Below, in pieces: positions 8,812 to 23,800 of a stretch of 24,183 nucleotides of DNA. Each line of letters opens with the position of its first letter. Position 1 is the first letter of the stretch. The notes beneath the pieces are model-generated. The model ran no database searches. It was not told the origin of the DNA and saw only the letters and a list, made by a program, of their open reading frames with translations. Source of the stretch: a virus; the IMG/VR virus record IMGVR_UViG_3300042292_000586, positions 1 through 24,183 of that record; one strand, 5' to 3'. The translations under genes were made by a program, and so were the position numbers.

Positions 8812-9374
8812 TGGAACCCACCCCAACCGTGCCCACGCAAGCCGTACCCGTTACGGCTCCCGTGGATGCTGCACCCGCCGCCGACGCTGCCCCCACTGCT
8901 CCTGTGGCTGCTGACGCCCCCGCACCCGACGTGGCAAGCCCTGCGGCTGCGGACGATGCTCCTGTTGACGCAGTGGACGCCGACGCTGGTGTTCAGCCTG
9001 TTGTAGTCGCGGTCCCGCACCACGCCCCGGCGCGCACCTACCCGTCGCTCTACGACTCGACCTTGACGACGATCCTCGCCATCGTCCTCGGCATGAGCAT
9101 CATCGGCGGCATCCAGTTTGCGGTGAACCGGATGTTCAAGAACGCGAAGGACGAGTACGCCGCGCTCACGCAGTTCGTCGTGAGCATGGTCGCGCTCGTC
9201 GTCGGGGCCTACCTCGTGGATCTGGTGATCAGCGGCCCCGACACGTCGCTGCTCTCCGCGAGCGAGAAGGCCACGATCCTCGACTTCGTGAAGGCGAACG
9301 TCGCCCTCGTCTTCGGCTACTACTTCGGGTCGCGCAGCCGTACCCCGCCCCCTTCTTCCACCCCCTCGGAGTGA
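8811..9374 (+). CDS. Holin-like multi-span membrane protein
   Basis: 187 residues. A long Pro/Ala/Asp-rich N-terminus (1-75) precedes membrane helices at about 84-106 and 121-141 and a weaker hydrophobic segment at 155-172, then a Ser/Pro tail. The start codon shares its first base with the stop of the previous gene (TGATG). Small size, two to three helices and position just before the endolysin argue for a holin, but holins have no universal motif. The shared EPT start and Pro/Ala-rich leader suggest a common origin with the preceding gene or matching targeting of their N-termini. Confidence 0.65.
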   Translation: MEPTPTVPTQAVPVTAPVDAAPAADAAPTAPVAADAPAPDVASPAAADDAPVDAVDADAGVQPVVVAVPHHAPARTYPSLYDSTLTTILAIVLGMSIIGGIQFAVNRMFKNAKDEYAALTQFVVSMVALVVGAYLVDLVISGPDTSLLSASEKATILDFVKANVALVFGYYFGSRSRTPPPSSTPSE

Positions 9375-9376
9375 CC

Positions 9377-10081
9377 ATGACCCCCACGGCCTCGCAGAAG
9401 CACGTCATCGACTGCGTCCTCTCGATCTTTGAGACAGGGCGCGTCCCCACCGCTGCCTCCTACGCTACCTGCACCATCCTCCCCGACGGGGCGGGGATCT
9501 CCTACGGGAAGCACCAATGCACCGACCGCGCCGGGAGCCTCGACGCGGTGGTCAAGCGGTACATCGAACTCGGGGGCGCGCACGCGGCGGCGTTGCAGGG
9601 GATGCTCCCGCTGCTCGCCAGCAACGCCAGCACGAAAGAGCCGCCGAAGGGTCCGCACTCTGCGCCGGTCGCCGCGCTCATGCAGACGTTGCGGACGGCG
9701 GGTGCCGACCCGCTCATGCAGCGGGCGCAAGACGAAGTGTTCGACCGCGATTACTTCGCCCCGGCAGTGAACCTCGCGCAGCAGATCGGGCTGAAGACGG
9801 CTCTCGGGCTGCTCGTGGTCTACGACTCGTGCATCCACAGTGGCCCCGGCGGGGTGACGATGATCCGGCAAAAGTTCGCGGAGAAGTCGCCCGCGAACGG
9901 CGGCGACGAGAAGGCGTGGGTGCTGGCCTACATCCGCACCCGCCGCAACTGGCTGGCGACGCACTCCATGACGGTGCTGCACGCGACGGTCTACCGGATG
10001 GACGCACTGAAGGCCATCGCGGACGCGGGCAACTGGGACTTGGCGACACCGCTCACCGTGCGTGGTCAGCGCATCGCGTGA
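9377..10081 (+). CDS. GH46/chitosanase-like endolysin
   Basis: 234 residues. The N-terminal pattern IFETGR (Glu near 19) followed by ILPDGAGISYGKHQ (Asp near 37) matches the two acidic catalytic residues and nearby glycine/tyrosine stretch of GH46-like glycosidases, and SLDAVVKRYIELGG is the usual next helix. Later LLVVYDSCIHSGPGG and a WVLAYIRTRRNWL helix fit the same fold, which in phages serves as a muralytic enzyme rather than a true chitosanase. There is no signal peptide, so release through the upstream holin-like protein is expected. ATG 9377 is chosen over GTG 9371 because CGGAG lies five bases before it. Role: cutting the glycan strands of host peptidoglycan. Confidence 0.75.
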   Translation: MTPTASQKHVIDCVLSIFETGRVPTAASYATCTILPDGAGISYGKHQCTDRAGSLDAVVKRYIELGGAHAAALQGMLPLLASNASTKEPPKGPHSAPVAALMQTLRTAGADPLMQRAQDEVFDRDYFAPAVNLAQQIGLKTALGLLVVYDSCIHSGPGGVTMIRQKFAEKSPANGGDEKAWVLAYIRTRRNWLATHSMTVLHATVYRMDALKAIADAGNWDLATPLTVRGQRIA

Positions 10082-10464: not shown

Positions 10465-10528
10465 ACCCGCACTCCGTGTCGGAACCCGCTTTTGAGGCGG
10501 GCGCGTCTACCATTCCAGCCACGTCCCC
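10446..10528 (-). tRNA. tRNA-Leu (anticodon CAA)
   Basis: Reading the minus strand: acceptor GGGGACG pairs fully with CGTCCCC; the D-arm contains GGAATGGTAGACGCG, typical of leucine tRNAs; the anticodon stem CCCGC/GCGGG encloses CTCAAAA, giving anticodon CAA for UUG codons; a long class II variable arm follows; the T-arm is GCGGG-TTCAAGT-CCCGC. The discriminator is A and CCA is not encoded. UUG is rare in a GC-rich genome, so the tRNA may compensate for host/phage codon differences. Confidence 0.93.
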
Positions 10529-10535
10529 GTGAGGG

Positions 10536-10736
10536 CTACCCGCGCAGCCACGCCGCCAGACGGGCGAAGAAGCCCGCCGCCGGGACGGGCGCAACGAGGT
10601 GCGGGTACTTCAGCGACCGCTCGCGGATGCGCTCGACTTCGTTGTCGGTGAGCAGCCAGTGTTCGATCCCGCCCGTGCGGGTGCGGATCGCGAGTTGCCA
10701 GTAGGCACCGGACTTCGTGAGGATAGAGAGGTTCAT
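10536..10736 (-). CDS. Small hypothetical protein
   Basis: 66 residues. Beta-like start (LSILTKSGAYWQLAIRTR) followed by a helix with LTDNEVERIRERSLKYPH and a basic amphipathic tail ending FFARLAAWLRG, which might associate with membranes. No family recognised. The start overlaps the upstream stop (ATGA). It is the last protein gene of the small-gene operon, seven bases before the tRNA gene. Confidence 0.6.
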   Translation of the reverse strand: MNLSILTKSGAYWQLAIRTRTGGIEHWLLTDNEVERIRERSLKYPHLVAPVPAAGFFARLAAWLRG

Positions 10737-10987
10737 CGTGATGCTCGTTTCGTGACGGCGTGCGCTCGGATCGCTTGTGCCAGTTCTGTCCCGGTGGCGC
10801 ACGCGGGGGTGAAGGTGGACTTCATGGTATCGGTGCCGAACACCGCGCCCGTCACCAGCACGCACCGTGAACAAGAAGCGGAAGCAGCGTGTGCGGTGAG
10901 AGCGCGGTGCAGATCGGCATCTTGCTCCCACGGCCACACGAGGTCATGGCCGTTGTCGCCGGGGAGCGTCAGAAAGAGAAGGGTCAT
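10733..10987 (-). CDS. Small hypothetical protein with CxxC
   Basis: 84 residues with a hydrophobic beginning (TLLFLTLPGD), SASCSRCVLV with a CxxC pair, a further cysteine in PACATG, and a final ELAQAIRAHAVTKR helix. The cysteines could bind a metal but are too few for a firm call. Weak ribosome binding site (CAGGGC). A TTGACA lies only a few bases before the ATG and cannot be its -35 element. No family recognised. Confidence 0.55.
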   Translation of the reverse strand: MTLLFLTLPGDNGHDLVWPWEQDADLHRALTAHAASASCSRCVLVTGAVFGTDTMKSTFTPACATGTELAQAIRAHAVTKRASR

Positions 10988-11005
10988 GCCCTGTCAACTA
11001 TCGCG

Positions 11006-11296
11006 CTATGGTACGAGCCGCTGCGGCACGGACGCCTTCGCTGCGATGGACCGGGCGGCGGCGGCGCGCTCTCCGTCCCGACGGCCCACGCCGGGGGTGA
11101 GGCCCAGTGCCACGTCGATGTCGTGGAGTTCATCCGTCATCTCGATCACCGCTTGGCCGTGCCGCGTGATCTGCTCGCGCAGGTTCCCGATGGTGTGGTC
11201 GCGCTCCGCGATGTCGTCGCGCAGCCGGTCGATGACTTCCAGCAGCGCGGCGCGTACTGCTTGGTGCTTCTTCTGCACCTTCTTCGGCGTGGTCAT
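11006..11296 (-). CDS. Basic helical hypothetical protein
   Basis: 96 residues, ATG 11296 overlapping the upstream stop. A basic N-terminus (TTPKKVQKKHQ) leads into a long heptad-like helix of about 50 residues (VRAALLEVIDRLRDDIAERD, then HTIGNLREQITRHG), suggesting a coiled-coil dimer. The tail is Arg/Ala-rich. No family recognised; possible DNA-associated or adaptor protein. Confidence 0.6.
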   Translation of the reverse strand: MTTPKKVQKKHQAVRAALLEVIDRLRDDIAERDHTIGNLREQITRHGQAVIEMTDELHDIDVALGLTPGVGRRDGERAAAARSIAAKASVPQRLVP

Positions 11297-11616
11297 GCTC
11301 CGATCTCCGTGTGCATGTAGGAGGCGAGCGCGCCAAACACGCGCTCGTCGTCCACGCGCTCGGCCTTGCCGTTCTGCTGGAGCGCGGCGTAGAGGCCGCG
11401 AGCGAACGCGAGACTGTGGCCCCTGCACGTCCCCGGCATGTCGAGGACCGTGCAGAGGTCGCTGCCGGGGTCCGCGACGTGATCCGTCACGTCGCACCCG
11501 ATGAAGTCGCGGTCCACCTTCAGCACGGTGAGCGTCACGGCGGTCTTGCCGTTGCGGTGCGTGTAGAAGATGCTGCTCTCGTCCTCTCGGACGCTGAAGA
11601 GTCGCGGGGGGTTCAT
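11293..11616 (-). CDS. Hypothetical protein
   Basis: 107 residues, ATG 11616 chosen for its ATGA overlap with the upstream stop. Beta-rich first half (SSIFYTHRNGKTAVTLTVLK, then VDRDFIGCDVTDHV) and helical second half (HSLAFARGLYAALQQNGKAE, RVFGALASYMHTEI). No family recognised. Confidence 0.6.
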   Translation of the reverse strand: MNPPRLFSVREDESSIFYTHRNGKTAVTLTVLKVDRDFIGCDVTDHVADPGSDLCTVLDMPGTCRGHSLAFARGLYAALQQNGKAERVDDERVFGALASYMHTEIGA

Positions 11617-11957
11617 TCGCTGCTCCCCGTGTCCACGGGCGTCGGGGCGTCGGACTCCACGCCCCAACCGCTGACGAAGGCGGGGCTGATGGGGTTGCTC
11701 TCGGTCCACTGCGTCACCACGTCCGCAGGGGCACTGACGGTTTCGATGTCCGCGAGGAAGTCGTCGCCGGGGAGCGCGAGCAGTACGCCCATGCCCTTGT
11801 CGGTCGCGACGGCGACGAGAAACTGGAAGTCGGGGGCCTTCGCGCCGATGAGTCCGCTCTGCGCGGTGAGTTTCGCAAGGTGTTCGCGGATCGTCGCGGC
11901 GGCACCGCGCAGCCGCTCGGCGGGAGTGAGGTCATGGGGGATGAGGTCAGTGATCAC
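11613..11957 (-). CDS. Hypothetical protein, GTG start
   Basis: 114 residues. GTG 11957 overlaps the upstream stop (GTGA) and has AAGGAG five bases before it. A DLTPAERLRGAAATIREHLA helix is followed by strands FQFLVAVATDKGMGVLLALP; the C-terminus is acidic and Ser/Pro-rich. The opening matches the look of short phage proteins with a helical DLTPxERLRxA segment, but no function is known to me. Confidence 0.6.
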   Translation of the reverse strand: MITDLIPHDLTPAERLRGAAATIREHLAKLTAQSGLIGAKAPDFQFLVAVATDKGMGVLLALPGDDFLADIETVSAPADVVTQWTESNPISPAFVSGWGVESDAPTPVDTGSSE

Positions 11958-12319
11958 GGCTTCTCCTTGATGTCGGCAGGGTACGAGGGCCACTTGCCCT
12001 CTTCGATGTAGGCGGCGGCGTCGTTGAAGGCGTCGGCGCGGTAGTGCTGGCCCGTGCCCTCGCAAACCTTCCCGGCGCGGCGCAGTTCCGACACGACGCC
12101 CAGCAGGGCGGTGCGAACGTCGTCCGCGCTGCTATGCGGGTGGGGGCAGTCGGCGCGAGGGACGTTCTCGGCGTCGGGCAGCGCGCACACGGCGCGGCAG
12201 AACGTCTGCCCGCCCCACGTCAGCACCATCTCCATCGCGGGGTCGCCCTCCAGCGTGGTGATGTGCAGATCGGCGCGCAGCCCGTCCAGCACCAGTTTCG
12301 TCACCTCTTGCGGCGTCAT
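11954..12319 (-). CDS. Hypothetical protein with several cysteines
   Basis: 121 residues, ATG 12319 overlapping the upstream stop. Helix EVTKLVLDGLRADL, strands (HITTLEGDPAMEMVLTWGG), then cysteines in TFCRAVCALPD, RADCPHPH and GKVCEGTGQHY. The Cys/His set might bind zinc, but spacing matches no family I recognise. Ends with DAAAYIEEGKWPSYPADIKE. Confidence 0.6.
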   Translation of the reverse strand: MTPQEVTKLVLDGLRADLHITTLEGDPAMEMVLTWGGQTFCRAVCALPDAENVPRADCPHPHSSADDVRTALLGVVSELRRAGKVCEGTGQHYRADAFNDAAAYIEEGKWPSYPADIKEKP

Positions 12320-14285: not shown

Positions 14286-15092
14286 ATGGGCTTCAAGGTC
14301 ACGGTACACAAGAACGGTGCGAAGCACGGCGAAGCGCACTACACGTCGGAAGCCGTCGCCGTTGGCATGGCGAAGAAGATGAAGAACGCCGGGGCCGACG
14401 TGTCCGTGGCGCGCTGCAACGGTGCGTGCTGCTGCGGGACGAAGTCGAACCCCCGCCGTGCGCGGGGCGGCTCGTCGGCGGCACTGGAGCAGAAGATCGC
14501 GGCACTGGAAGCCACGCTCCCGAAGGCGACCGTGCGCGCTGCGCTGGAAGAGTGTGGCTGGAGCGGCCCGATGATGATGGCGTCCCGCTCGGAGATGGAA
14601 ACCTACCTCCGCGAGTTGCGCCGCCACGCCAAGGCGAACCCCCGCCGCAACGTGAAGAGCGCGAAGGAAGAGGCAAAGTTCTGGCGGCAGATCAAGCGCG
14701 CAGAGGCAGAAGAGTTCGTGACCAAGGTGCCGCGCCGCAACGGCACGACGGCGGGCGAGATGGCCGCTGGCCGGTCGATGGCCTACACGCGCCTGTTCCG
14801 CAACGGTGCCGCGAAGAGCGAAACCTACGAGCAGGCGCGGAAGCGCATCTTCGCAGAGTTTGGCGCAGCGGGCTGGACGACGAGCAGCCCGTCGCTGAAG
14901 GTGCCGCACGCTACCTCGCCGGACGGACTGACCCGTGCGTGGTTCAAGCCGCAGGCGATCCACTTTACGAATGTTGGCCCCCACCAGCGTCACGAACTCG
15001 GCAACGCCCACACGGTGTCGTACTCGCTCGACATTCGCAAGGTGCCCGCCGGGGTCTTCGTCCCGTGGTTCACCAAGAACTTCGCCAAGTAG
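14286..15092 (+). CDS. NPRR-tagged protein with KNGxxHGE domain
   Basis: 268 residues from ATG 14286. Residues 1-45 (FKVTVHKNGAKHGEAHYTSE then AADV-like strand) align with the N-terminus of the next gene: (F/Y)K(V/I)x(V/I)xKNGxxHGE, then Y(T/S)S and ADVxVxR. A cysteine cluster (RCNGACCCG) precedes KSNPRR, a helical segment follows, then a second KANPRR and a basic third region ending VFVPWFTKNFAK. The tags sit between domains as if marking junctions. An in-frame ATG at 14211 with an AAGAGA leader would add 25 unalike residues; 14286 is preferred because the shared domain begins there. No known family recognised. Confidence 0.75.
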   Translation: MGFKVTVHKNGAKHGEAHYTSEAVAVGMAKKMKNAGADVSVARCNGACCCGTKSNPRRARGGSSAALEQKIAALEATLPKATVRAALEECGWSGPMMMASRSEMETYLRELRRHAKANPRRNVKSAKEEAKFWRQIKRAEAEEFVTKVPRRNGTTAGEMAAGRSMAYTRLFRNGAAKSETYEQARKRIFAEFGAAGWTTSSPSLKVPHATSPDGLTRAWFKPQAIHFTNVGPHQRHELGNAHTVSYSLDIRKVPAGVFVPWFTKNFAK

Positions 15093-15102
15093 GGAGGGAG
15101 CC

Positions 15103-15948
15103 GTGGCCTACAAGATCGTCATCCGCAAGAACGGGAAGTCCCACGGCGAGATGGGGCCGTACTCGTCGCCGCAGGCGGCGCAGTCCGACGCCCGCACGAT
15201 CAAGATTCGGCTGACCGAAGATGCCGACGTTGTCGTCCAGCGCATCGAAGTCGGCGGGGTCAAGTATGTGCCCCGGCAGTCGAGCGGGTCGTCCTCGGGC
15301 GGGTCGTCGTCCTCGGGCAAGCCGAAGTCGTCGTCCCCGTCCTCTCCCCCGCCGTGGTGGCAGCAGCACACCACTGGGTCGTCGTCCAAACTGGAGGCGG
15401 CGATGGGTCCAAAGTGGGGCGGCAGCGGGTCTATGCCCGCAGGCCCGCAGGCCCCCTACGTCCCGCCCCCGCCGCGCATCGCCGCTGGCGGCGTCGTCAT
15501 CAACGAAGACGGGTTGATCCTCGTCCGCGAGCCGCTGAATCACTTTGACGGCTACGTCTGGTCGCTCCCGAAGGGCGGCGTCGATCCCGGTGAGACTGAC
15601 GAACAGGGCGCGCTCCGCGAGGTCGAGGAAGAAACGGGTGTGCGCGCAGAGATCGTCGCCCGCATCCCCGGCGAGTGGAAGGGGGGTACGTCGCTCAACC
15701 GCTACTTCCTCATGCGCCCCATCGAAGTCACGGGCGTGCTGGACGAGGAAACGGAGCAGATCGCCTTCGTCACCTACGACGAGGCGCGGGAGTTGCTGGG
15801 CATGACGACGAACAAGCGGGGTCGCGAGCGCGACCTTGAGGTTCTGGACGCGGGCTACGCGATGTGGCTCCAGCAGCAGTCGGGCCTGCCCATGACGGGC
15901 ACGGGGCCGGGACCGAAGGCGAACCCTCGTCGCCACACGTTCGCGTAG
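15103..15948 (+). CDS. Nudix hydrolase fused to KNGxxHGE domain, NPRR tail
   Basis: 281 residues from GTG 15103 (ribosome binding site AGGGAGGGAG). Residues 1-58 repeat the N-terminal domain of the previous protein. A Ser/Gly/Pro linker (59-125) leads to a complete Nudix fold: box GGVDPGETDEQGALREVEEE plus TGV at 158-180 satisfies Gx5Ex7REUxEExGU. The protein ends KANPRRHTFA. Nudix enzymes hydrolyse nucleoside diphosphates linked to another group, for example oxidised nucleotides, caps or ADP-ribose; which of these is used here cannot be told. Domain sharing with its neighbour suggests the N-terminal module localises different partners to one place. Confidence 0.85.
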   Translation: MAYKIVIRKNGKSHGEMGPYSSPQAAQSDARTIKIRLTEDADVVVQRIEVGGVKYVPRQSSGSSSGGSSSSGKPKSSSPSSPPPWWQQHTTGSSSKLEAAMGPKWGGSGSMPAGPQAPYVPPPPRIAAGGVVINEDGLILVREPLNHFDGYVWSLPKGGVDPGETDEQGALREVEEETGVRAEIVARIPGEWKGGTSLNRYFLMRPIEVTGVLDEETEQIAFVTYDEARELLGMTTNKRGRERDLEVLDAGYAMWLQQQSGLPMTGTGPGPKANPRRHTFA

Positions 15949-15954
15949 GTCGCC

Positions 15955-16479
15955 ATGATCGCTCGTCCTCCGTTCAGCGGCTACACATCCCCCGGTGTAG
16001 CAGGCGGGGCTGCGCTCGCGGCCATTGGTCAGTTCTCCAACGACACCGATCAATCGCTCGTCGCCAACACGCCGACGCTCGTCCGCTTCAACACGACGGA
16101 CTTCGCGACTAACGTGTCGGTCGTTGACCCCGGCACGGGGCCGACGCGCATCACCCCGGCGGTCGCAGGCGTCTATCGGTTCGACGTGAGCCTCCAGATG
16201 CTACACACCGGAGGTGGCGGCATCACCGTTACGTTTTGGCCCCGGCTCGACGGCGTGAACGTGCCCAACTCGGCGTCCAGCATCGAAATGGGCAACAACA
16301 ACAACCGCACCTTGCCCTACGTCGCCGTCGTCCTCCAGTTGCTCGCGGGGCAGTACGTTGAGTGGGTTGTCCTTGCGTCGGGCGCGAACACCAGCATCGA
16401 ACACTTCGCTGCCGTCGTTGGCCCTCCCGCCGTTCCCGCCATCCCCTCGGCCATCGCTGGCGTCTTCCGCGTCGGGTAA
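15955..16479 (+). CDS. C1q/TNF-like jelly-roll protein, possible fibre or spike head
   Basis: 174 residues. After a Gly/Ala-rich beginning, the strand pattern fits the C1q/TNF-like fold used in phage receptor-binding and head-fibre proteins: FSNDTDQSLVANTPTLVRFN, GVYRFDVSLQMLHTGGGG, FWPRLDGVNVPNSAS, TLPYVAVVLQLLAGQYVEWV and a final NTSIEHFAAVVG. GVYRFDVSLQ is the most characteristic strand. Such domains trimerise and bind receptors or decorate capsids. No NPRR tag and no signal peptide. Position inside the tagged-enzyme module suggests a virion surface role. Confidence 0.65.
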   Translation: MIARPPFSGYTSPGVAGGAALAAIGQFSNDTDQSLVANTPTLVRFNTTDFATNVSVVDPGTGPTRITPAVAGVYRFDVSLQMLHTGGGGITVTFWPRLDGVNVPNSASSIEMGNNNNRTLPYVAVVLQLLAGQYVEWVVLASGANTSIEHFAAVVGPPAVPAIPSAIAGVFRVG

Positions 16480-16496
16480 CCCCAAGGAGTCTCTCT

Positions 16497-17375
16497 ATGC
16501 CTCGGAACCTCGACTACCCGATGCCCATGCACGGTCGCATGATGCGCCAGCGGTTGTGGGAGGCGCAGATCGACGCCGGGATGCTCTACGACGTGCTGCG
16601 CGACGACGACGCCGTCCCGGCGTGGACGCTCGACAAGGTGGCCCGTGGCGCGGAGAACATCCACCAAGTCAGCCGCTATCTGCGCTTCAAGGCCAGCAAC
16701 CCGCTGCACTGGGGCGCACCCGACGCGCCCGCCACCGTGACGCTCCCCGAAACCACGGACGGCCCCTTCTACGCGGCGATCCTTCGCGGCATCGGCGCAC
16801 CCGTCACGGGGAACACGCTCGCGCTGATCTACGCATGGCGGCAGACGGAGGGCGGCAAGGCCACCTACAACCCGTTCAACACGACGCTGAAGAAGCCCGG
16901 CAGCACGCTGTACGCCAAGAACACCCACGGCGTGCAGAACTACGCGACCCCGCAAGACGGCGTGGACGCGACCGTCACGACGATGCTGCACCCGCGCTAC
17001 GCGGACATCATGGCCCTGCTGCGGGCGAACGCCGACCCGACGACGACGGCGAAGGCGATCATCGCGAGCAAGTGGGGCACGGGCAAACTGCTGCTCGACG
17101 TGCTGGCGATGTATGCGCGGGGGCGAGTCGTGCTGCCCGCTATCGCCACCGTGCCCGGTGCCCCGGCGATCTCGACGCTCGACGCGCCGCCCCCGGCTGC
17201 GCCGCCCGCGAAGAAGTCTCGGCGCGCTGCCCCGCCGCCGAAGCCGACGAACTGGCTTCTCTGGGGCGGGATCGCCGCCGCCATCGCCGCCGTCGCGCTG
17301 CTCCCGGTCGTCTTTGGGAGCGGCGTACCCACGCTCCCCGCGCCGCCGAAGTCCAACCCGCGCCGTCGGCGTTAG
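16497..17375 (+). CDS. Membrane-anchored transglycosylase-like protein, NPRRRR tail
   Basis: 292 residues, ATG 16497 with AAGGAG upstream. Residues about 85-205 resemble lysozyme-like or transglycosylase domains of phages: LIYAWRQTEGG (Glu118 as likely catalytic acid), NPFNTT, GVQNYATPQDGVDATVTTML and a YADIMALLRAN helix. A Pro/Ala/Lys linker (220-250) leads to a membrane helix (about 253-274, NWLLWGGIAAAIAAVALLPV) and then PPKSNPRRRR at the extreme C-terminus. The positive-inside rule puts the tag on the cytoplasmic or virion-interior side and the enzyme outside. Role: local peptidoglycan digestion, perhaps at entry. There is no signal peptide. Confidence 0.75.
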   Translation: MPRNLDYPMPMHGRMMRQRLWEAQIDAGMLYDVLRDDDAVPAWTLDKVARGAENIHQVSRYLRFKASNPLHWGAPDAPATVTLPETTDGPFYAAILRGIGAPVTGNTLALIYAWRQTEGGKATYNPFNTTLKKPGSTLYAKNTHGVQNYATPQDGVDATVTTMLHPRYADIMALLRANADPTTTAKAIIASKWGTGKLLLDVLAMYARGRVVLPAIATVPGAPAISTLDAPPPAAPPAKKSRRAAPPPKPTNWLLWGGIAAAIAAVALLPVVFGSGVPTLPAPPKSNPRRRR

Positions 17376-17384
17376 GGGGTCGTC

Positions 17385-18056
17385 ATGCTATCGAAGTCGC
17401 AGAACGGCTGGCCCGCCGCCTCGGATCGCTCGGTCATCAACATCCAGACGTTCACCGTCCCCGTCCGCAACGGCACGGTAAAGATCCCGCTGCGCGGTGA
17501 AGCCGCGCCCCGCTTGATCGAGATGATCAAGTGGTGGGACGCGAACATCGAACCCGTCTACACGAGCGGCGCGAACGCCGGGACGTGGGGCTACGCCTAC
17601 CGCACCATCCGTGGCTACACGACGACGTTGAGCAACCACGCCTCGGGCACCGCCATCGACATCAACGCCCCGTTGCACCCGCTCGGAGCGCGGAACACCA
17701 TCGCCGCCGACAAGGTCGCCCCGCTGCGGGCGAAGGCCCGTGAACTGGGGCTGCGGTGGGGCGGCGACTACACCGGACGCGCTGACGAGATGCACTTTGA
17801 GGTCATCGTCCCGCCGCCCGCCGAAGCCGTGGCGTACAGCGAGCAGCGGGCGCAGGGCATCGCCGCCGTCGCACCGGAGGCTGCGGAGTTTGCAGTCGCC
17901 GTCGCGAAGGGTGCGGCCCGGCAAGTCGTCGGCGGTGGGCGCAAGGAGTTGGCCCGCAAGGTGCGCCGGAACTGGTGGATCGCGGCAGTGGGCTTCGCGG
18001 GTGCGTCCTTCGCGCTCTGGTGGTTCGCGCTGCGGAAGCCGAAGGCCCGCCTGTGA
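17385..18056 (+). CDS. M15-type peptidoglycan peptidase with C-terminal membrane helix
   Basis: 223 residues. Zinc-peptidase residues are visible: SNHASGTAID (H85, D92) and DEMHFE (D134, H137), the arrangement of M15 L-Ala-D-Glu or D-Ala-D-Ala peptidases, with aspartate where VanY types have glutamate. A long Ala-rich helix is followed by KVRRNWWIAAVGFAGASFAL (membrane helix about 196-214) and a basic end RKPKARL that lacks the NPRR motif. Together with the genes before and after, this is a third envelope-acting enzyme built as enzyme, linker, RNW-type helix, basic tail. Role: cleaving stem-peptide bonds in the wall. Confidence 0.85.
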   Translation: MLSKSQNGWPAASDRSVINIQTFTVPVRNGTVKIPLRGEAAPRLIEMIKWWDANIEPVYTSGANAGTWGYAYRTIRGYTTTLSNHASGTAIDINAPLHPLGARNTIAADKVAPLRAKARELGLRWGGDYTGRADEMHFEVIVPPPAEAVAYSEQRAQGIAAVAPEAAEFAVAVAKGAARQVVGGGRKELARKVRRNWWIAAVGFAGASFALWWFALRKPKARL

Positions 18057-18973
18057 TGTCCGCGCTCATCGGCCCGCTCGCCGTGTCCTACGGGGCTGCG
18101 GACATCGGCCCGTGGCGCACGGACACGAGCAGTCGCGGCACGACGACGTTCGTCCCGGCGGGGCGTAGCCGTGGGCCGCTGCTCTACGTCTTCCCCGGCA
18201 TCGACGGCTTCCCCTACGGGGGCGGCATCACGTCGGGCGCGGAGTGGATTCGGAAGGTGCTGCCCGCTGGGATGGCGAGCATCGGCGCGGTGGTCGTCGC
18301 TCGGAAGTCCTCGGCCCCGTGGCCCGAAGTCCAAGCCGACGCGGCGGCGAGCCTCGCGAAGTTGGGCTACGCGCCGACGTTCAGCAGCGCGATGGGCTTC
18401 AGCGGTGGCGCGGCGACGCTGCTCGGTGCCCCGCTGACGACGGCGGGCTGGCGGCGCGTCATGCTCGTTGACCCGTCCATCCCCCCGGCGATGCAGCGAG
18501 CGGTGACGGGCGGTGGCCCGATCCCCGGCATCGACTCCCGCGTCGAGATGACGTTCCACGCGGGAAACTGGGGCGGCTTCAAGTCGATCCAAGCCGCGAT
18601 GCGCCCGCTGGCTGACGCGATCAACCGCGCCGGGGGCAAGGCCGTCGAGATCAAGCAGTACCACGCCAAGTTTGTCTACGACGCCTTCGCGGCGATGCAG
18701 CAGCGACCCAGCGACCCGTCGTTGTTCGGCGCGGAGCGTCCGTCGTTTGTCTCGTCCGACGCTCCCGCAGAGTCGCGAGCGGTGGCCCGCCGCAAGCGTG
18801 CGCCGAAGCGTAGGGCTTCGACGCTGCGCCGAAACTGGCTGCTCGCGGGCCTCGGAGCGGTGGGCCTCGGACTCGTCGTGTGGCTCGCCTTCTCGGGCGG
18901 GAAGCCGACGACGCTGGCCGTCGTCACGCCGCGAGCAAACCCACGTCGCCGTAGACTGCGCGGGCGCGGATGA
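18056..18973 (+). CDS. Membrane-anchored alpha/beta-hydrolase-like protein, NPRRRR tail
   Basis: 305 residues, ATG shares its first base with the previous stop (TGATG). LLYVFPGIDGF gives the strand and oxyanion region, GFSGG (114-118, Ser116) the nucleophile elbow, LVDPSIP an acidic position (Asp139) and QYHAKF (His203) the likely catalytic histidine, so lipase/esterase chemistry is plausible. The C-terminus has a basic stretch (RRKRAPKRRASTLRR), an RNWLLAGLGAVGLGLVVWLA helix (about 259-279) and ANPRRRRLRGRG at the end. Substrate unknown: lipid, an acylated surface glycan or another ester. Its last 50 bases overlap the opposite-strand gene ending at 18924. Confidence 0.7.
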   Translation: MSALIGPLAVSYGAADIGPWRTDTSSRGTTTFVPAGRSRGPLLYVFPGIDGFPYGGGITSGAEWIRKVLPAGMASIGAVVVARKSSAPWPEVQADAAASLAKLGYAPTFSSAMGFSGGAATLLGAPLTTAGWRRVMLVDPSIPPAMQRAVTGGGPIPGIDSRVEMTFHAGNWGGFKSIQAAMRPLADAINRAGGKAVEIKQYHAKFVYDAFAAMQQRPSDPSLFGAERPSFVSSDAPAESRAVARRKRAPKRRASTLRRNWLLAGLGAVGLGLVVWLAFSGGKPTTLAVVTPRANPRRRRLRGRG

Positions 18974-19169
18974 GGGCGTCGCGGCGGTTCGCGTAGGCGT
19001 AGCAGACGCCGCCGATCCACGGCAGCGTGCCTAGCGCGAGGTTCCCGTAGGTGCTGACGTAGGCGGCGTGGACGGGGCCGTAGAGCCGCCCGCTACCGTC
19101 GGCGCACGGTCGGGCGACGATCCAGCGGTCGGTGAGGGTGCAGTGGTGAACGCAGTCGTCTAGGGTCAT
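18924..19169 (-). CDS. Small cysteine-containing hypothetical protein
   Basis: 81 residues. Cysteines near 6, 10, 22 and 56 (DDCVHHCTLTDRW, VARPCADG, GGVCYAYA) and aromatic strands (YGPVHAAYVSTYGNLAL). GGGAGG precedes ATG by eight bases. It does not carry the Arg tag of its upstream neighbours. The 3' end overlaps the tag-coding end of the convergent plus-strand gene. No family recognised. Confidence 0.55.
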   Translation of the reverse strand: MTLDDCVHHCTLTDRWIVARPCADGSGRLYGPVHAAYVSTYGNLALGTLPWIGGVCYAYANRRDALIRARAVYGDVGLLAA

Positions 19170-19186
19170 CGGGTTGCCTCCCGATG
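19167..19186 (-). promoter_or_regulatory. Hairpin enclosing ribosome binding site and start codon
   Basis: On the minus-strand RNA, CAUCGGG pairs with CCCGAUG around a six-base AGGCAA loop. The final AUG of the right arm is the start codon at 19169, and the Shine-Dalgarno bases lie in the loop and left arm. Folding would limit initiation, allowing translational control. Confidence 0.4.
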
Positions 19187-19231
19187 AAGGGTAGGCCCGA
19201 TGCCCCAGTGTTCAAGCGCGAGCGCGAGCGG

Positions 19232-19471
19232 TCAGTCGCCCAGTTTGGGCAGCACCGCGAGAACGTGCTTGCTCGCGCTTTCGATTGCGTCGTAGACGAC
19301 GTAGATTTGCGCCACTTCGGCTTCTGTCGCGTCGGAGTATTGTTGCTCAAGTAGGACGTTGAGGGCCTTCTCCAAGTCGCGACTTGCCGCTTCCACGGCC
19401 TTGCGAACCTTGGTGGACCCCGGGACACGGGGATTGCGGTGGCGACGAACGGTACGACGACGGGTAGCCAT
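19232..19471 (-). CDS. RRxNP-tagged helical protein
   Basis: 79 residues. The tag ATRRRTVRRHRNP (2-14) is followed by two helices (STKVRKAVEAASRDLEKALN, EAEVAQIYVVYDAIESASKH), suggesting a small helical bundle. Basic at the N-terminus, near neutral later. CGAGG precedes ATG by six bases. No family recognised; the tag is shared with the neighbouring genes. Confidence 0.7.
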   Translation of the reverse strand: MATRRRTVRRHRNPRVPGSTKVRKAVEAASRDLEKALNVLLEQQYSDATEAEVAQIYVVYDAIESASKHVLAVLPKLGD

Positions 19472-19494
19472 TGGAAGCCTCGGAAGGTGAGAGG

Positions 19495-19827
19495 TCAGCG
19501 GCGACGACGAGCGACGGTGCGGCGACGACGCGGGTTTGCGCGGCCCGCCAAGAAATAGGCGGTGTCCAGCGCACGCTGGCTTATGCTCCCTTTGGGGGCG
19601 TGCGCGGCGGCTTCGGCCATGATGTCAGCGTACTGCGACTGCGTGATGACGCCCACGTCACGGAGGTAGGCGTAGTCGTGCTGGCCCCAAGCGTCTTCGA
19701 TGTCGTCAGCCTTCTTGCGGAGGTCGTGAGCCTCGGCGCGCATGAACTGGATGGCCTCGCGGATGCGCTCGCCCACGAAGGACGAGGGGTTGCGGCGACG
19801 GCGAACGGTGCGGCGGGCGGTGGGCAT
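19495..19827 (-). CDS. Protein tagged at both ends (RRRRNP and NPRRRR)
   Basis: 110 residues from ATG 19827. The N-terminus PTARRTVRRRRNP and the C-terminus RANPRRRRTVARRRR bracket a helical core (GERIREAIQFMRAEAHDLRK, SQYADIMAEAAAHAPKG). Having both tag types on one chain shows the motifs are not simply a minus- or plus-strand habit. No family recognised; a nucleic-acid-binding or assembly role is inferred. Confidence 0.75.
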   Translation of the reverse strand: MPTARRTVRRRRNPSSFVGERIREAIQFMRAEAHDLRKKADDIEDAWGQHDYAYLRDVGVITQSQYADIMAEAAAHAPKGSISQRALDTAYFLAGRANPRRRRTVARRRR

Positions 19828-19876
19828 GATGAACCTCGTAGGTGCTGGGCGGTCAGCGGCGGGGGGAGCGACGGTT

Positions 19877-20746
19877 CTACTTCTTGCGCTCGTAGTAGAG
19901 GCCGACACGGTGCAGTACCCAGCCAGCCTTCTCCACGATGCGCCGCTCGGGGGCGCGCATCGCCTTGGCGATCTTGGAGGTCTTGCCACGCTTCCACAGG
20001 TGATTCCCGCCGAACGCTCCCGGTTCGCCCTCGTAGACCTTCGGGTGCGCGGCGAAGACGGCGCGTGCCGCTGCTTCGACCTCGTCCGTCGGGTTCCGAC
20101 GACGGGTGGCGGTGCGGCGACGGGGGTTGCGCTTCGGCCCCTTGCCGATGGAAACGAGGAGCGCGTCCGATCCACGTTCGATCACGGCCCAGTTGCCCCG
20201 GTGGTTGCGCTTGTCGAGGAGGCCCGACGCGATCAGCGACGTGGCGTACTGCTCGTTGTGCGGGTCGCTGCCTGCCGCGACACCCGTCACGGTGAACACG
20301 TCGCCTTCGTCGGCGTAGACTTTCTCGCCCAGCCGCACCTTCGCGCTCGCCGGGAAGTAGTTGGAGCCGACGAAGCCCGCCTCGGCCTTCTTCTTCGCTG
20401 CCGTGGCTGCGCGCTTCGCCGCTGCCGCAGCCTTCTTCGCAGCCTTCTCTGCCGCTTCTTGGGCGGCAAGCCGCTCCAACGCCATGTCCTGCATGGGGCC
20501 GTACCCATAGTCCGTAAGGCGTCGATAGGCGGCGTAGGCGCGGTCGCCTTCTGCGCTGCCCTTGCGGGCGTAGCGGTCTGCCCCAAACGCCAAGCGAAAC
20601 ACCGCGCTGCGGAGGTCGAAGAAGTCGTTGTCGGAGAGCGCGGCCAGTTCTCGTGGCGGCATTAGGGGGAACGCCTCGGCGGCAAGGACGGCTTCGGGCA
20701 CGTCGGGGTTGCGACGGCGAACGGTGCGGCGGCGGGTAGCGGGCAT
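19877..20746 (-). CDS. Two-domain RRRNP protein with internal double tag
   Basis: 289 residues. N-terminal tag PATRRRTVRRRNP; helical region 30-92; an Ala/Lys-rich helix 93-122; a beta-rich domain about 124-203; then KRNPRRR (205-211) followed after three residues by RRRNP (215-219), and a second domain to the basic end YYERKK. The internal junction looks like the C-tag of one protein joined to the N-tag of another, so this may be a gene fusion or a precursor cut in two. GAGAGGA precedes ATG. No known family recognised. Confidence 0.75.
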   Translation of the reverse strand: MPATRRRTVRRRNPDVPEAVLAAEAFPLMPPRELAALSDNDFFDLRSAVFRLAFGADRYARKGSAEGDRAYAAYRRLTDYGYGPMQDMALERLAAQEAAEKAAKKAAAAAKRAATAAKKKAEAGFVGSNYFPASAKVRLGEKVYADEGDVFTVTGVAAGSDPHNEQYATSLIASGLLDKRNHRGNWAVIERGSDALLVSIGKGPKRNPRRRTATRRRNPTDEVEAAARAVFAAHPKVYEGEPGAFGGNHLWKRGKTSKIAKAMRAPERRIVEKAGWVLHRVGLYYERKK

Positions 20747-20748
20747 GA

Positions 20749-21039
20749 TCAGTCCTCTCCATTCATGGCGAAGATCTCGCGCTCCACTGCGTCAGCAAAG
20801 CGAAGCGTTTCCGTCGTGGCTTGGCCCAGAAGGACAAGGTGGTCGAAGAGGCCCTTCATGTTCTGCGTCTGCCGGTAGCCCTCACCTTCGACCTCTTCCC
20901 GAAGGTCAGCGAGCATCCGGCGCACGCGCACAAGGTTCCTCTCAAAGGCATCGAGGGTTTCCACGATGTCAGCGGCGCGGCTTCGGGCCTTGACGTTGGG
21001 GTTGCGGCGGCGAGCAACACGGCGGCGGGTAGCGGGCAT
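20749..21039 (-). CDS. RRRNP-tagged helical protein
   Basis: 96 residues. Tag PATRRRVARRRNP (2-14), then long helices (AADIVETLDAFERNLVRVRR, MLADLREEVEGEG, FDHLVLLGQATTETLRFADA), possibly a three-helix bundle with an acidic end. AAGGAG lies seven bases before ATG. The first residues match the downstream gene at 20746 almost exactly in protein and DNA, implying duplication of the tag segment. Confidence 0.7.
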   Translation of the reverse strand: MPATRRRVARRRNPNVKARSRAADIVETLDAFERNLVRVRRMLADLREEVEGEGYRQTQNMKGLFDHLVLLGQATTETLRFADAVEREIFAMNGED

Positions 21040-21050
21040 CGAGGACTCCT

Positions 21051-21233
21051 TCAGCGGTGACGGCGGTTGCGGCGGCGGGACGGCTGATCCGCGCCCAGCG
21101 TAGAACGGAAGAGGAGGTAGAACGCAGTGCCCACTGCCACGAGGGTGAGCGGCAAGCGGAGCGCGACGGGGACGCCGCCCTCGCTCTGCTCGGCTGCGGA
21201 CGCGGCATAGTCTTCGTAGGGGTTGTGGTACAC
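21051..21233 (-). CDS. Small single-span membrane protein with RRRNRR tail
   Basis: 60 residues from GTG 21233. Soluble N-terminus (YHNPYEDYAASAAEQSEGG), one membrane helix (about 27-46, LRLPLTLVAVGTAFYLLF) and a basic C-terminus SRRRNRRHR that looks like a degenerate tag. The upstream stop lies at 21239-21241. The start is uncertain: a CTG overlapping that stop (CTGA at 21239-21242) is the only longer option. Confidence 0.55.
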   Translation of the reverse strand: MYHNPYEDYAASAAEQSEGGVPVALRLPLTLVAVGTAFYLLFRSTLGADQPSRRRNRRHR

Positions 21234-21238
21234 GGCGT

Positions 21239-21643
21239 TCAGACGTTCTTCAGCGCGTTGCCGATGGCGAGCGCGATCTTGTCGATCTGCTTGGCTTCCA
21301 TATCGAAGACGCCGACGGGGAAGTCCTTGAACTGCGAAGTCGTGGCCGCACGGCGATAGGCTTCGTCTGCGCTCATGCCGTAGGCCATCATCTGCTCCTT
21401 CGTGGCGAAGAAGCGACCGCGCATGTCGCGAGCCATCGCAGTGTCGCCGTGGTTGGCGAAGGCGTTGATCGCCGCCGCCCAGCCCTTGCCGAAGGTGTCG
21501 ATCCACACCTGTGCCTCGGCGGCACCGTGCGGAAGCCACATGCGGACGCTGGGGTCAGCCCCGGCGTAGACCTTCAGCAGATCAAGGGCCTTGGCGGGGG
21601 TGACGTGGACGCGGGTGACGCGGGCGGGGTTGCGACGAGCCAT
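21239..21643 (-). CDS. RRNP-tagged hypothetical protein
   Basis: 134 residues. Short tag MARRNP (1-6), then strands and helices (RVHVTPAKALDLLKVYAGAD, AQVWIDTFGKGWAAAINAFA) and a helical end with QIDKIALAIGNALKN. Slightly basic overall. AGGAG precedes ATG within the repeated leader GAGTAGGAGTAC. No known family recognised. Confidence 0.75.
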   Translation of the reverse strand: MARRNPARVTRVHVTPAKALDLLKVYAGADPSVRMWLPHGAAEAQVWIDTFGKGWAAAINAFANHGDTAMARDMRGRFFATKEQMMAYGMSADEAYRRAATTSQFKDFPVGVFDMEAKQIDKIALAIGNALKNV

Positions 21644-21649
21644 GTGGGG

Positions 21650-21688
21650 GTACTCCTACTCCCCGCGAGCGTAACGGACGAAACGGCG
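21650..21688 (-). repeat. Repeated leader, copy A
   Basis: Plus-strand GTACTCCTACTC (21650-21661) and CGTAACGGACGAAACG (21670-21685). The first block carries the ribosome binding site of the gene at 21643; the second adjoins the terminator. Same layout in copies B and C. Confidence 0.75.
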
Positions 21689-21721
21689 AGGGCCACCGGG
21701 AACGGTGTCCCCGGTGGCCCT
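21689..21721 (-). terminator. Hairpin terminator, cassette A
   Basis: AGGGCCACCGGG pairs perfectly with CCCGGTGGCCCT (12 bp, 9-base loop). On the minus strand it is followed by CGCCGTTTCGTCC. It sits between the gene ending at 21740 and the leader of the next gene. Confidence 0.7.
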
Positions 21722-21739
21722 TGGGCGATGCCTCGGTGA

Positions 21740-21958
21740 TCAGTAATCGCCAAGCAACGAGCGTAGATGCGACGGAAGTCCCGAAGACGCACCGTGCGCT
21801 TCGGCTACGGATTCCAGTGCCCGCTGAATGTGGCGGTTTGCCGCCCGCAGGTTCTCCGCATGGGCATAGGTTTGGGCTTCTTCCAGTGCCTCGGCGGCGG
21901 CGGCGAGCGCGTCATCGAGGGTGGGGTAAAGCATTTCGGGGTTGCGGCGGCGGGCCAT
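21740..21958 (-). CDS. RRRNP-tagged small helical protein
   Basis: 72 residues from ATG 21958. Tag MARRRNP, then TLDDALAAAAEALEEAQTYA and ENLRAANRHIQRALESVAEA as two helices separated by a histidine, probably a helical hairpin. The start is fixed by the repeated GAGTAGGAGTAC leader. No family recognised. Confidence 0.75.
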   Translation of the reverse strand: MARRRNPEMLYPTLDDALAAAAEALEEAQTYAHAENLRAANRHIQRALESVAEAHGASSGLPSHLRSLLGDY

Positions 21959-21962
21959 AGGC

Positions 21963-22000
21963 GTACTCCTACTCCCGCCGACGTAACGGACGAAACGCCA
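21963..22000 (-). repeat. Repeated leader, copy B
   Basis: GTACTCCTACTC (21963-21974) and an exact copy of the 16-mer CGTAACGGACGAAACG (21982-21997) as in copy A. Confidence 0.75.
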
Positions 22001-22034
22001 AAGGTCACCGGAGGCTTTGCTTCCGATGGCCCTT
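22001..22034 (-). terminator. Imperfect hairpin, cassette B
   Basis: AAGGTCACCGGA and TCCGATGGCCCTT pair with two or three mismatches or wobbles around a GGCTTTGCT loop. It is the same position and family as the hairpins at 21689 and 22372, but weaker. Confidence 0.5.
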
Positions 22035-22059
22035 GGACGACGCCCCTGCGGGCGGGTGT

Positions 22060-22329
22060 TCAACCCTTGCTATTGGCGGCGTCCCACGCGGCGATCAGTC
22101 CCAGCATGTCCTCGACGCTCACCCCGGTCACGTTCGACCATGAGATCGACGCCCCGAGGTCGATGCTCTCGTTCCCGACGTACTTGAACTTCGGCCCGAC
22201 GCGCACCACTTCCGTGCGGTTTCCATGCAAGGGGTTCTCGCGTGTCATTTCGGCGTAGGTGTGCCCCTTGTGGCGATAGACCTCGATCTCCCACGGCGTA
22301 GGCTTGAGCAAGGGGTTGCGACGGGTCAT
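22060..22329 (-). CDS. RRNP-tagged hypothetical protein
   Basis: 89 residues. Tag MTRRNP, then strands WEIEVYRHKGHTYAEMTREN, RTEVVRVGPKFKYVGNE, and a helix VEDMLGLIAAWDAA. A second NP occurs in RENPLHGN without the Arg pair. AGGAG precedes ATG in the repeated leader. No known family recognised. Confidence 0.75.
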   Translation of the reverse strand: MTRRNPLLKPTPWEIEVYRHKGHTYAEMTRENPLHGNRTEVVRVGPKFKYVGNESIDLGASISWSNVTGVSVEDMLGLIAAWDAANSKG

Positions 22330-22420: not shown

Positions 22421-23800
22421 CTACGCGACGGCGGCGCGAGCGAACACGGGCATCAACTCCCCGGCGCGATGCTCCAGCATCGAGCGGCTGAACTCGCTCC
22501 ACTGCGCCTCGTGGGCGGCGCGGGTGACCGCGTTCAACAGGTCGGCCAGCGTGTCGCCCTGCTCGGCCTTGTAGGCAGAGAGGAGGGCTTCCACCAGCGT
22601 GTCGCGAGCGACGCCCGCGTCGATCTCCCCCTTCTCCGCGAGAGCCGTGAGCGCGGTGGGCACGTCCTTGTAGGTCTGCCCGAACAGGGACACCTTCGAC
22701 ACGTCGGTCGCACGGGTCACCTTCCAATCGCGGGCGAACGCGGCGAACGCCTCGGGCGCGGCCTTGACGGTCGCGACGATCTCGGGGACGACGCCGTCGA
22801 GGTTGCCCCGGTGGGCGCGACGGAAGGCCGCGAGGTAGGCGTCCGCGATGGTGAGGTTGACGCAGAGGATGCGGGTCGCGGCGAGCGACACCTTGAACCC
22901 GCCGTTCGCGGCGTCAGCGGTGGACCCGGCCACGCCGACTCGCAGCACGTCGCCCACGCGGGGGTCGATCTCCTGCGGGGCCATCCACGCGGCTTCCCAC
23001 CGCACGCGGGTGCTGGCGGGATCGTAGACGACGGAGCCGCGCATCCCCTCGCCCTTCAGCGCGTCGGCCACGCCCGCGAGGACTCGGTCGGCTTGCGCCG
23101 TCGTCGGGTAGGTGCCGCTGACGGCGCGGAACGCTTGCCACGCGCCGTTCACGTTGCGGACGCCGACTTGCGCCTTCGCGGTGTCGGGGAGTTTCGGGGC
23201 CTGTCGATTCCAGACCTCGGCGCGCACGTCGGGGTCGAGGATGCGGAGCATCGCCTTCGCGGACGGGAGGACCGGCGCGGCCATGCCCACGAGAGCGTCC
23301 CACGCCAGCGGCTCCAGCGGGATGCTGCCCTTGCCCCTCGTGATCTGCCCGTCGGGGGTGATGCGGAGATCGCGGAGCGGGACGGTGAAGTTTGTGCGCC
23401 GCTCCGCGCTGATCGCCTTCGCCGCTTCCATCGCCGCGTCTTCGATGAAGGGCTTGCTCGCGTGGTCGGTCGCCATCGCCTTGAACTTGTCCTTGCCGCT
23501 CTTCGCGAGCGGGGTGCCGACGGCGAAGAAGGGCTGCGGGAGGGCGAAGCCCATGCCGTCGAGGACGGCCATCTGCGCGGCGTTGCGCTGCTGCGCGGCC
23601 ACGGCCCCGGCGTCCGTCGCCGTCTGCGCGACGGGGGCGGCGGGCGTCGCGGGCGTCGTGGCGTTGGGGTCGGTCAGCCGTCCCGCGAACCCGTCGGCGG
23701 CGAAGCGCGCCATCGCGTCGGGGGTGGGCAGCGTGACGGGGACGCCGTCGGGCGCGGTGTAGACGAGGTGCGAGGGGGTGGGGTTCTGGTCGGTGTCCAT
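22421..23800 (-). CDS. DUF932-like phage/plasmid protein
   Basis: 459 residues, the largest complete gene here. After a Thr/Pro/Ala-rich start, the middle (about 225-330) shows the DUF932 layout: VRNVNGAWQAFRAVSGTYPT, an ADALKGEGMRGSVVYDP helix and strand, KVSLAATRILCVNLTIADAY with the conserved C-x-N turn and a RRAHRGNLD segment, then a helical C-terminal half. Family members occur on phages and plasmids, often near replication or anti-restriction genes, and have no agreed function. A strong promoter lies 25 bases upstream and AAGGAG precedes ATG. It lacks the RRxNP tag although it heads that operon. Confidence 0.7.
   Translation of the reverse strand: MDTDQNPTPSHLVYTAPDGVPVTLPTPDAMARFAADGFAGRLTDPNATTPATPAAPVAQTATDAGAVAAQQRNAAQMAVLDGMGFALPQPFFAVGTPLAKSGKDKFKAMATDHASKPFIEDAAMEAAKAISAERRTNFTVPLRDLRITPDGQITRGKGSIPLEPLAWDALVGMAAPVLPSAKAMLRILDPDVRAEVWNRQAPKLPDTAKAQVGVRNVNGAWQAFRAVSGTYPTTAQADRVLAGVADALKGEGMRGSVVYDPASTRVRWEAAWMAPQEIDPRVGDVLRVGVAGSTADAANGGFKVSLAATRILCVNLTIADAYLAAFRRAHRGNLDGVVPEIVATVKAAPEAFAAFARDWKVTRATDVSKVSLFGQTYKDVPTALTALAEKGEIDAGVARDTLVEALLSAYKAEQGDTLADLLNAVTRAAHEAQWSEFSRSMLEHRAGELMPVFARAAVA

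Follow-up and report, generated by a model that had tools for sequence, protein, structure and literature searches.

The virus DNA of IMG/VR record IMGVR_UViG_3300042292_000586 (24,183 bases, 68% GC, analyzed at its whole length and called the window here) raises the question of why proteins of unrelated folds should begin or end with the same short arginine-rich peptide. Genes were called with our own simple codon-usage caller, and motif sites were located by a six-frame search of the window. Nine of the 43 called genes carried NPRR or RR(x)NP, and two small genes, at 19232 (started later by the caller) and 21740 (missed by it), were tagged as well when the starts in the open reading frame list were used. 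At C-termini the tag took the form [KR][SA]NPRR(R), the two residues upstream of NPRR being mostly KS, KA or RA, and at N-termini the form RRRNP; the two are mirror images, with the arginines outermost and NP between the arginines and the folded domain. We favor the reading, with belief and doubt in about equal measure, that NPRR/RRNP is a tag by which one phage lineage incorporates proteins into its virion or retains them at the genome.

The window was analyzed together with three close records, G001 (IMGVR_UViG_3300037485_001485, 72,988 bp) and G002 (IMGVR_UViG_3300037041_000775, 58,610 bp), both found by a search with the protein encoded at 22421, and G003 (IMGVR_UViG_3300017761_003982, 18,878 bp), found by an endolysin search. 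As a control, the first 30, the last 30 and the middle residues of each protein were permuted separately in 1000 shuffles. In the window, 4 C-tagged genes were observed against a shuffled mean of 0.01 (maximum 1), 5 N-tagged genes against 0.05 (maximum 2) and 9 tagged genes overall against 0.25 (maximum 3); in the four records together, the counts were 17, 9 and 35 against 0.2, 0.2 and 1.7. The order of the letters was equally strict, since NPRR was found 17 times in the C-terminal 30-mers of the four records and PNRR, RRPN and RRNP not at all, and RRNP 9 times in the N-terminal 30-mers, with no PNRR or RRPN. The residue preceding PRR at C-termini was Asn in 17 of 21 cases (Pro, Arg, Ala and Lys once each), though Asn makes up 2.6% of residues, and among these 21 it was never Ser or Thr. 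Asn and Pro are both specific, so charge alone does not account for the tag. The 29 NPRR sites had 16 different 12-base DNA spellings, which makes the peptide the conserved unit. The claim of an earlier note, made from the sequence of the window, that unrelated proteins share a terminal tag was thus upheld by the shuffles, with 19232 and 21740 adding to the nine; in agreement with its claim that no other window protein is tagged, the motif was absent from genes at 1 to 14.2 kb and 22.4 to 24.2 kb.

Tagged genes made up 35 of the 121 late genes (structural, lysis, and the window at 14 to 22 kb) and none of the 123 early or replication genes of the four records; the P value of 1e-12 for this restriction is merely indicative because we drew the late and early borders from gene content. 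The carriers comprised Nudix, M23 and GNAT-like proteins, small helical proteins, a 1379-amino-acid protein and small membrane proteins. Orthologs kept the tag, and most of the small N-tagged window proteins had no detectable relative. A homology-free scan with the DNA pattern of NPRRRR-stop gave 116 matching stretches elsewhere. Equal frequency in unrelated genomes, which by the earlier note would speak against a tag, was put to the test and the tag was not refuted: 80 viral NPRRRR-stop loci showed no tag clustering, and the sole clear exception was G004 (IMGVR_UViG_3300032214_001486, 105 kb), which belongs to the same virus group. Arginine is common at 68% GC, and these 116 matches might likewise point to chance, GC-rich composition or a translated DNA repeat, an explanation to which we give almost no credence. 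Chance and composition were rejected by the shuffles and letter permutations and a DNA repeat by the 16 spellings, and both the late-only location and the unclustered unrelated matches also stand against it.

Overlooked in the earlier note were the absence of a recognizable terminase from the lineage and the position of about half of the C-terminal tags behind a transmembrane helix. Among 23 proteins matching a slightly looser C-terminal pattern, 12 had a membrane helix that lay no more than 60 residues from the end. The window cassette runs from the lysozyme-like gene 16497 (tagged) through the M15 gene 17385 (untagged) to 18056 (tagged), and the matching order in G001 is a lysozyme-like gene at 59425 (ending NPRYRRSRRSR), a tagged GNAT-like gene at 58673 and a tagged M23 peptidase gene at 57981 (Pfam 2.8e-17). 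Residues 170 to 224 of the G001 M23 protein were 62.5% identical to residues 241 to 296 of the window 18056 protein (E = 3e-13), the preceding domains differ, and the two tails read RRNWWIAALATVGVGAVLLFALGGGKRTLAVVTPKANPRRRRRR and RRNWLLAGLGAVGLGLVVWLAFSGGKPTTLAVVTPRANPRRRRLRGRG. In G002 and G003 the M15 enzymes have a similar helix-plus-tag tail, and the window M15 enzyme retains the helix without the tag. The same tail behind differing domains implies that helix and tag are a unit selected separately from the domain ahead, and this exchange of modules is the strongest of the new evidence. Because the tag is late-only, is kept in relatives and has a tail that moves between unrelated domains, the conclusion that it is not inherited with a domain and belongs to one assembly is well supported by sequence. 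To this extent the earlier proposal of a signal for one assembly stood; the signal may serve sorting, packaging, DNA binding or processing, the roles that the note had named.

A core protein of 460 to 680 amino acids, encoded next to two candidate capsid genes, was present in six of the six group members covering the region. Near its start it has KNPRRRR in G001 and G002, TNPRRKRRR in G006, SNPKR in G004, TNPSRR in G005 and TNPNDRRR in G007. Its first 200 residues contain 43 to 59 Arg and Lys against 1 to 7 Asp and Glu, a protamine-like composition, and hydrophobic helices follow. It may be the genome-membrane linker of the virion and is likely the ancestral bearer of the motif. The candidate capsid proteins, of 180 and 232 amino acids, are the two most conserved structural proteins and appear beta-rich; profile searches against the PDB gave nothing for either. 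The model of the 180-amino-acid protein has eight strands at low confidence (predicted local distance difference test 50, predicted template modeling score 0.55), and with it Foldseek returned generic jelly-roll-like matches only.

No terminase, portal, HK97 capsid, tail, head or protease family was recognized among 49 scanned G001 proteins, structural region included, and no encapsulin-type HK97-fold shell was matched in that region with Pfam or PHROG. A phrog_15528 "portal" match was rejected because what it covers in the Nudix protein concerned is the Nudix stretch. Packaging enzymes were sought in six frames in G001, G002, G004, G006 and G007 with the models Terminase_6N, TerL_ATPase, Pox_A32 and FtsK, which detected the control genomes. 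In these five records Terminase_6N and TerL_ATPase gave nothing above the cut-off, Pox_A32 was absent, and FtsK matched once, below threshold, within an SMC-like gene of G006. Neither the terminase large subunit that marks tailed phages (Caudoviricetes) nor the FtsK/A32-type packaging ATPase that marks Varidnaviria (PRD1-like or P23-77-like) was therefore recognized in these records. The beta-rich capsid candidates with generic jelly-roll-like matches, together with the many small proteins ending in membrane helices, suggest a particle that is probably tailless and membrane-containing. Every distant member has a SNF2-type helicase gene within its structural module or adjoining it; since no known packaging enzyme was found, it is conceivable that it encodes the packaging motor. 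The structural module also has a conserved transglutaminase-like protein, which in G001 and G002 finishes with a hydrophobic stretch and a cluster of Arg; it could cross-link virion proteins or process them. A second motif, perhaps one for docking to the shell, is shared by the starts of small proteins, most of which have a membrane helix at the C-terminus; it reads R-F-x-P-S-x-Y-G/S in G001, G002 and G005 and R-N-F-G in G006.

According to the favored reading of a virion-incorporation or genome-retention tag, the Asn-Pro turn would set the folded domain apart from the outermost arginine tail, and the tagged late proteins would enter the virion as it assembles and stay in its genome-facing compartment, bound to packaged DNA or to an internal partner. 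The target of the tag would be DNA, an acidic coiled-coil protein or the shell, and the protamine-like core protein would presumably be held in the genome-facing compartment likewise. The M15, M23 and lysozyme-like enzymes, with the tag behind a membrane helix, would act as entry enzymes associated with the virion membrane, and the small, fast-changing proteins at 19.2 to 22.3 kb would be virion cargo. The location in the virion, the tailless membrane-containing particle and the binding partner are all what we infer from sequence. A co-assembly tag is favored because the sequence is strict, is used at either end and is late-only, the cargo is variable, the enzymes are exchangeable and the core protein has the motif. 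We propose more tentatively, holding it somewhat doubtful as a whole, that an undescribed lineage of large (73 to 105 kb), tailless, probably membrane-containing phages loads its virion with more than 10 enzymes and small proteins, unrelated to one another, via a terminal code with mirror symmetry (RRRNP for starts, NPRRR for ends), and that the code spreads as a ready-made helix-plus-tag cassette is moved from gene to gene.

Several observations weigh against a co-assembly tag. Some copies of the tag are internal, at domain borders, and some resemble fusions of tagged genes. The M15 endolysin encoded at 17385 lies inside the tagged cluster and has lost the tag that its G002 and G003 orthologs carry. 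The tag is dense only in the clade of the window, G001, G002 and G003 and sparse in G004 to G007, which implies that it is not required to build this virion type. A strongly positive tail after a single C-terminal helix should stay cytoplasmic, which bears on the orientation of the enzymes in the membrane. The late-only restriction, finally, depends on borders of our own drawing.

The membrane helices allow the quite unlikely explanation that the tag is a membrane-topology or lipid-binding device only, whose arginine tail pins the C-terminus in the cytoplasm and leaves the lytic domains in the periplasm during lysis. It would account for the 12 of 23 C-tagged proteins with a helix near the end, and basic ends are also seen on membrane proteins of these phages that have no tag; topology requires charge, however, and not Asn-Pro, and soluble carriers (Nudix, GNAT-like and small proteins) and N-termini have the motif too. 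Sorting of the LPXTG or PEP-CTERM kind was set aside, since in those systems the motif precedes the membrane helix and here it follows it. The copies at domain borders and in apparent fusions would fit a processing site, at or near which a viral enzyme such as the transglutaminase-like membrane protein would cut during maturation, and the structural module does contain a conserved Transglut_core protein. We regard processing as improbable, given that cutting terminal tags would free just a few residues, that no protease family was recognized and that the tag has no Gln, a mismatch with transglutaminase chemistry.

Docking of the tags during assembly onto a polyacidic scaffold-like virus protein, and not onto DNA, is unlikely, yet it has a definite candidate in a coiled-coil protein with a long Asp/Glu stretch, found in G001 and G004. 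Very acidic stretches are few in these genomes, this protein has one of them, and its gene lies in the structural module; T4 cargo likewise enters a scaffolding core (PMC3012670). The strict Asn-Pro goes beyond what charge would demand, and the acidic protein was not recovered in every member.

Table 1. Positions of the tagged window proteins, of their neighbors and of other elements shared with related records.
Feature	Record	Position	Strand	Description
268-amino-acid protein	window	14286..15092	+	two internal tags between domains, TKSNPRR at 14448 and AKANPRR at 14637 (residues 55 and 118)
Nudix protein	window	15103..15948	+	Pfam NUDIX 2e-20; C-terminus PKANPRRHTFA
Possibly lysozyme-like protein	window	16497..17375	+	C-terminal membrane helix, then PKSNPRRRR; weak PDB lysozyme match (E = 0.012)
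M15 peptidase endolysin	window	17385..18056	+	Pfam 1.5e-13; C-terminal membrane helix, no tag
Protein without family match	window	18056..18973	+	hydrolase-like by eye (GFSGG); C-terminal membrane helix, then PRANPRRRRLRGRG
79-amino-acid protein	window	19232..19471	-	starts MATRRRTVRRHRNP, variant N-terminal tag (RRHRNP)
110-amino-acid protein	window	19495..19827	-	tags at both ends, MPTARRTVRRRRNP ... GRANPRRRRTVARRRR
289-amino-acid protein	window	19877..20746	-	N-terminal tag MPATRRRTVRRRNP plus internal KRNPRRRTATRRRNP; G002 ortholog 35%
96-amino-acid protein	window	20749..21039	-	N-terminal tag MPATRRRVARRRNP
134-amino-acid protein	window	21239..21643	-	N-terminal tag MARRNP
74-amino-acid protein	window	21740..21964	-	N-terminal tag MARRRNP
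89-amino-acid protein	window	22060..22329	-	N-terminal tag MTRRNP
NPRR start positions	window	14448, 14637, 15922, 17355, 18938	+	
NPRR start positions	window	19536, 20128	-	
RRxNP start positions	window	19800, 20104, 20719, 21012, 21952	-	
Glycosyl hydrolase family 46	window	9371-10081		chitosanase-type; Pfam 5.6e-24; beside small membrane proteins
Weakly DUF932-like protein	window	22421-23800	-	E = 0.003; ~80% identical in G001 and G002
Third shared module	window	14286-14480, 15103-15300		N-terminal domain
Third shared module	G001	21975, 61640, 62335		
Third shared module	G002	14988, 51047		
Third shared module	G004	80180		
Acidic coiled-coil protein	G001	38569-40596		
Acidic coiled-coil protein	G004	96473-99190		
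Transglutaminase-like protein	G001	35356-36159		hydrophobic stretch and Arg cluster at the end
Transglutaminase-like protein	G002	2323		hydrophobic stretch and Arg cluster at the end
Transglutaminase-like protein	G004	93861		
Transglutaminase-like protein	G005	31665		
SNF2-type helicase	G001	10482-12107		
SNF2-type helicase	G002	26011		
SNF2-type helicase	G004	63208		
SNF2-type helicase	G005	53590		
SNF2-type helicase	G006	13813		
SNF2-type helicase	G007	21814		
Second end motif	G001	29941, 30750, 31196, 36836		protein starts
Second end motif	G002	1125, 6323, 6892, 7281		protein starts
Second end motif	G005	50321		protein start
Second end motif	G006	1299, 18545, 18757		protein starts

Some details of the earlier note were corrected by the individual proteins (Table 1). 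Both copies in the 14286 protein, one of the plus-strand carriers for which it gave a mostly C-terminal position, are internal, and so is the C-type copy of 19877; the latter protein looks like two tagged genes fused, with a C-terminal tag followed immediately by an N-terminal one. RRxNP, described at seven minus-strand starts, holds strictly at 19495, 19877, 20749 and 21740; the proteins at 21239 and 22060 start with M-x-RRNP, and 19232 has the variant form. The fold labels proved uneven: Nudix for 15103 and M15 for 17385 reach significance in Pfam, 16497 has the marginal lysozyme match only, and the 18056 protein had no family match in Pfam and profile searches and no relative in the viral contigs. 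Relatives of the Nudix protein end in SNPRHRFA, KNPRHVFA or RNRRRHSFA. The 14286 protein shares an N-terminal RKNG-type domain with 15103 and has orthologs in G001 (three copies), G002 and G003. Unrelated proteins also have a third module in common, which is N-terminal, ~50 to 65 residues long and contains K-x-x-I-R-K-N-G-x-x-H-G-E-x-G-P-Y-S-S. The family 46 glycosyl hydrolase is perhaps a further lytic enzyme of the window.

The group is known here from eight records, window included. G001, in which a terminal repeat of 127 bp is exact, was read as a closed circular map. Besides G004, found by the NPRRRR-stop scan and placed in the group by capsid candidates 60 to 62% identical, the distant members (39 to 105 kb) are G005 (CAIUMM010000152.1, 92,743 bp), G006 (39 kb) and G007 (41 kb), found with the most conserved structural proteins as queries. 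G005 was binned with an uncultured proteobacterium and is probably a free virus genome because it has a 141-bp terminal repeat. Genomes of 73 to 105 kb, a family A DNA polymerase, an integrase and the two very conserved candidate capsid proteins characterize the group. The protein encoded at 22421 adjoins the tagged cluster and is itself untagged. Among 50,697 named phage records no match was found for the 16497, 18056 and 22421 proteins or for either candidate capsid protein, and at the DNA level there was no near match. Searches of an open-access library turned up neither an NPRR tag, the matches being to the NprR quorum-sensing receptor, nor a matching virus group. By its sequence the window apparently belongs to a phage group that is so far undescribed.

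Only a few systems are known in which a tag marks unrelated proteins for a single assembly. If the virion-incorporation or genome-retention reading is true, this would be a new one that works from either end, virion content would be predictable from sequence alone, another peptide with which to load particles with proteins would be at hand, and notice would be drawn to an unclassified group of large phages without a recognizable tail, terminase or packaging ATPase. The minor-groove motifs SPKK and SPRR in DNA-condensing tails combine a Pro-containing turn with basic residues, as the tag does, and the core protein resembles such tails in its protamine-like composition; in contrast to them, the first residue of the C-terminal tags is mostly Asn, with no case of Ser or Thr, and carriers mostly have one copy each. 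The peptidoglycan-degrading enzymes P7 of PM2 and P7 and P15 of PRD1 are associated with the virion membrane (PMC5380687), a role like that proposed for the helix-anchored M15, M23 and 16497 proteins; the passages on them describe no shared terminal tag, and no PRD1-type packaging ATPase was found here. The encapsulin cargo loading peptide is likewise short and stands at one terminus, C or N, of proteins that are unrelated and encoded near the shell gene (PMC7355545). In encapsulins a hydrophobic shell pocket receives the peptide (PMC7355545), whereas the tag is basic with Asn-Pro and no encapsulin shell was recognized. The internal proteins of T4 are diverse, fast-changing and have only the capsid targeting sequence (CTS) in common (PMC3012670), a single short terminal sequence on diverse late proteins as here, and a common N-terminal sequence on unrelated proteins is present in the window too. 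The T4 CTS is N-terminal and is loaded into the scaffolding core of a tailed phage, whereas here the motif is rich in arginine and occurs at either end, and genes for a tail, a terminase or an HK97 capsid were not recognized. By analogy, the T4 CTS and the encapsulin peptides would be what the tag works like, rather than families to which it belongs.

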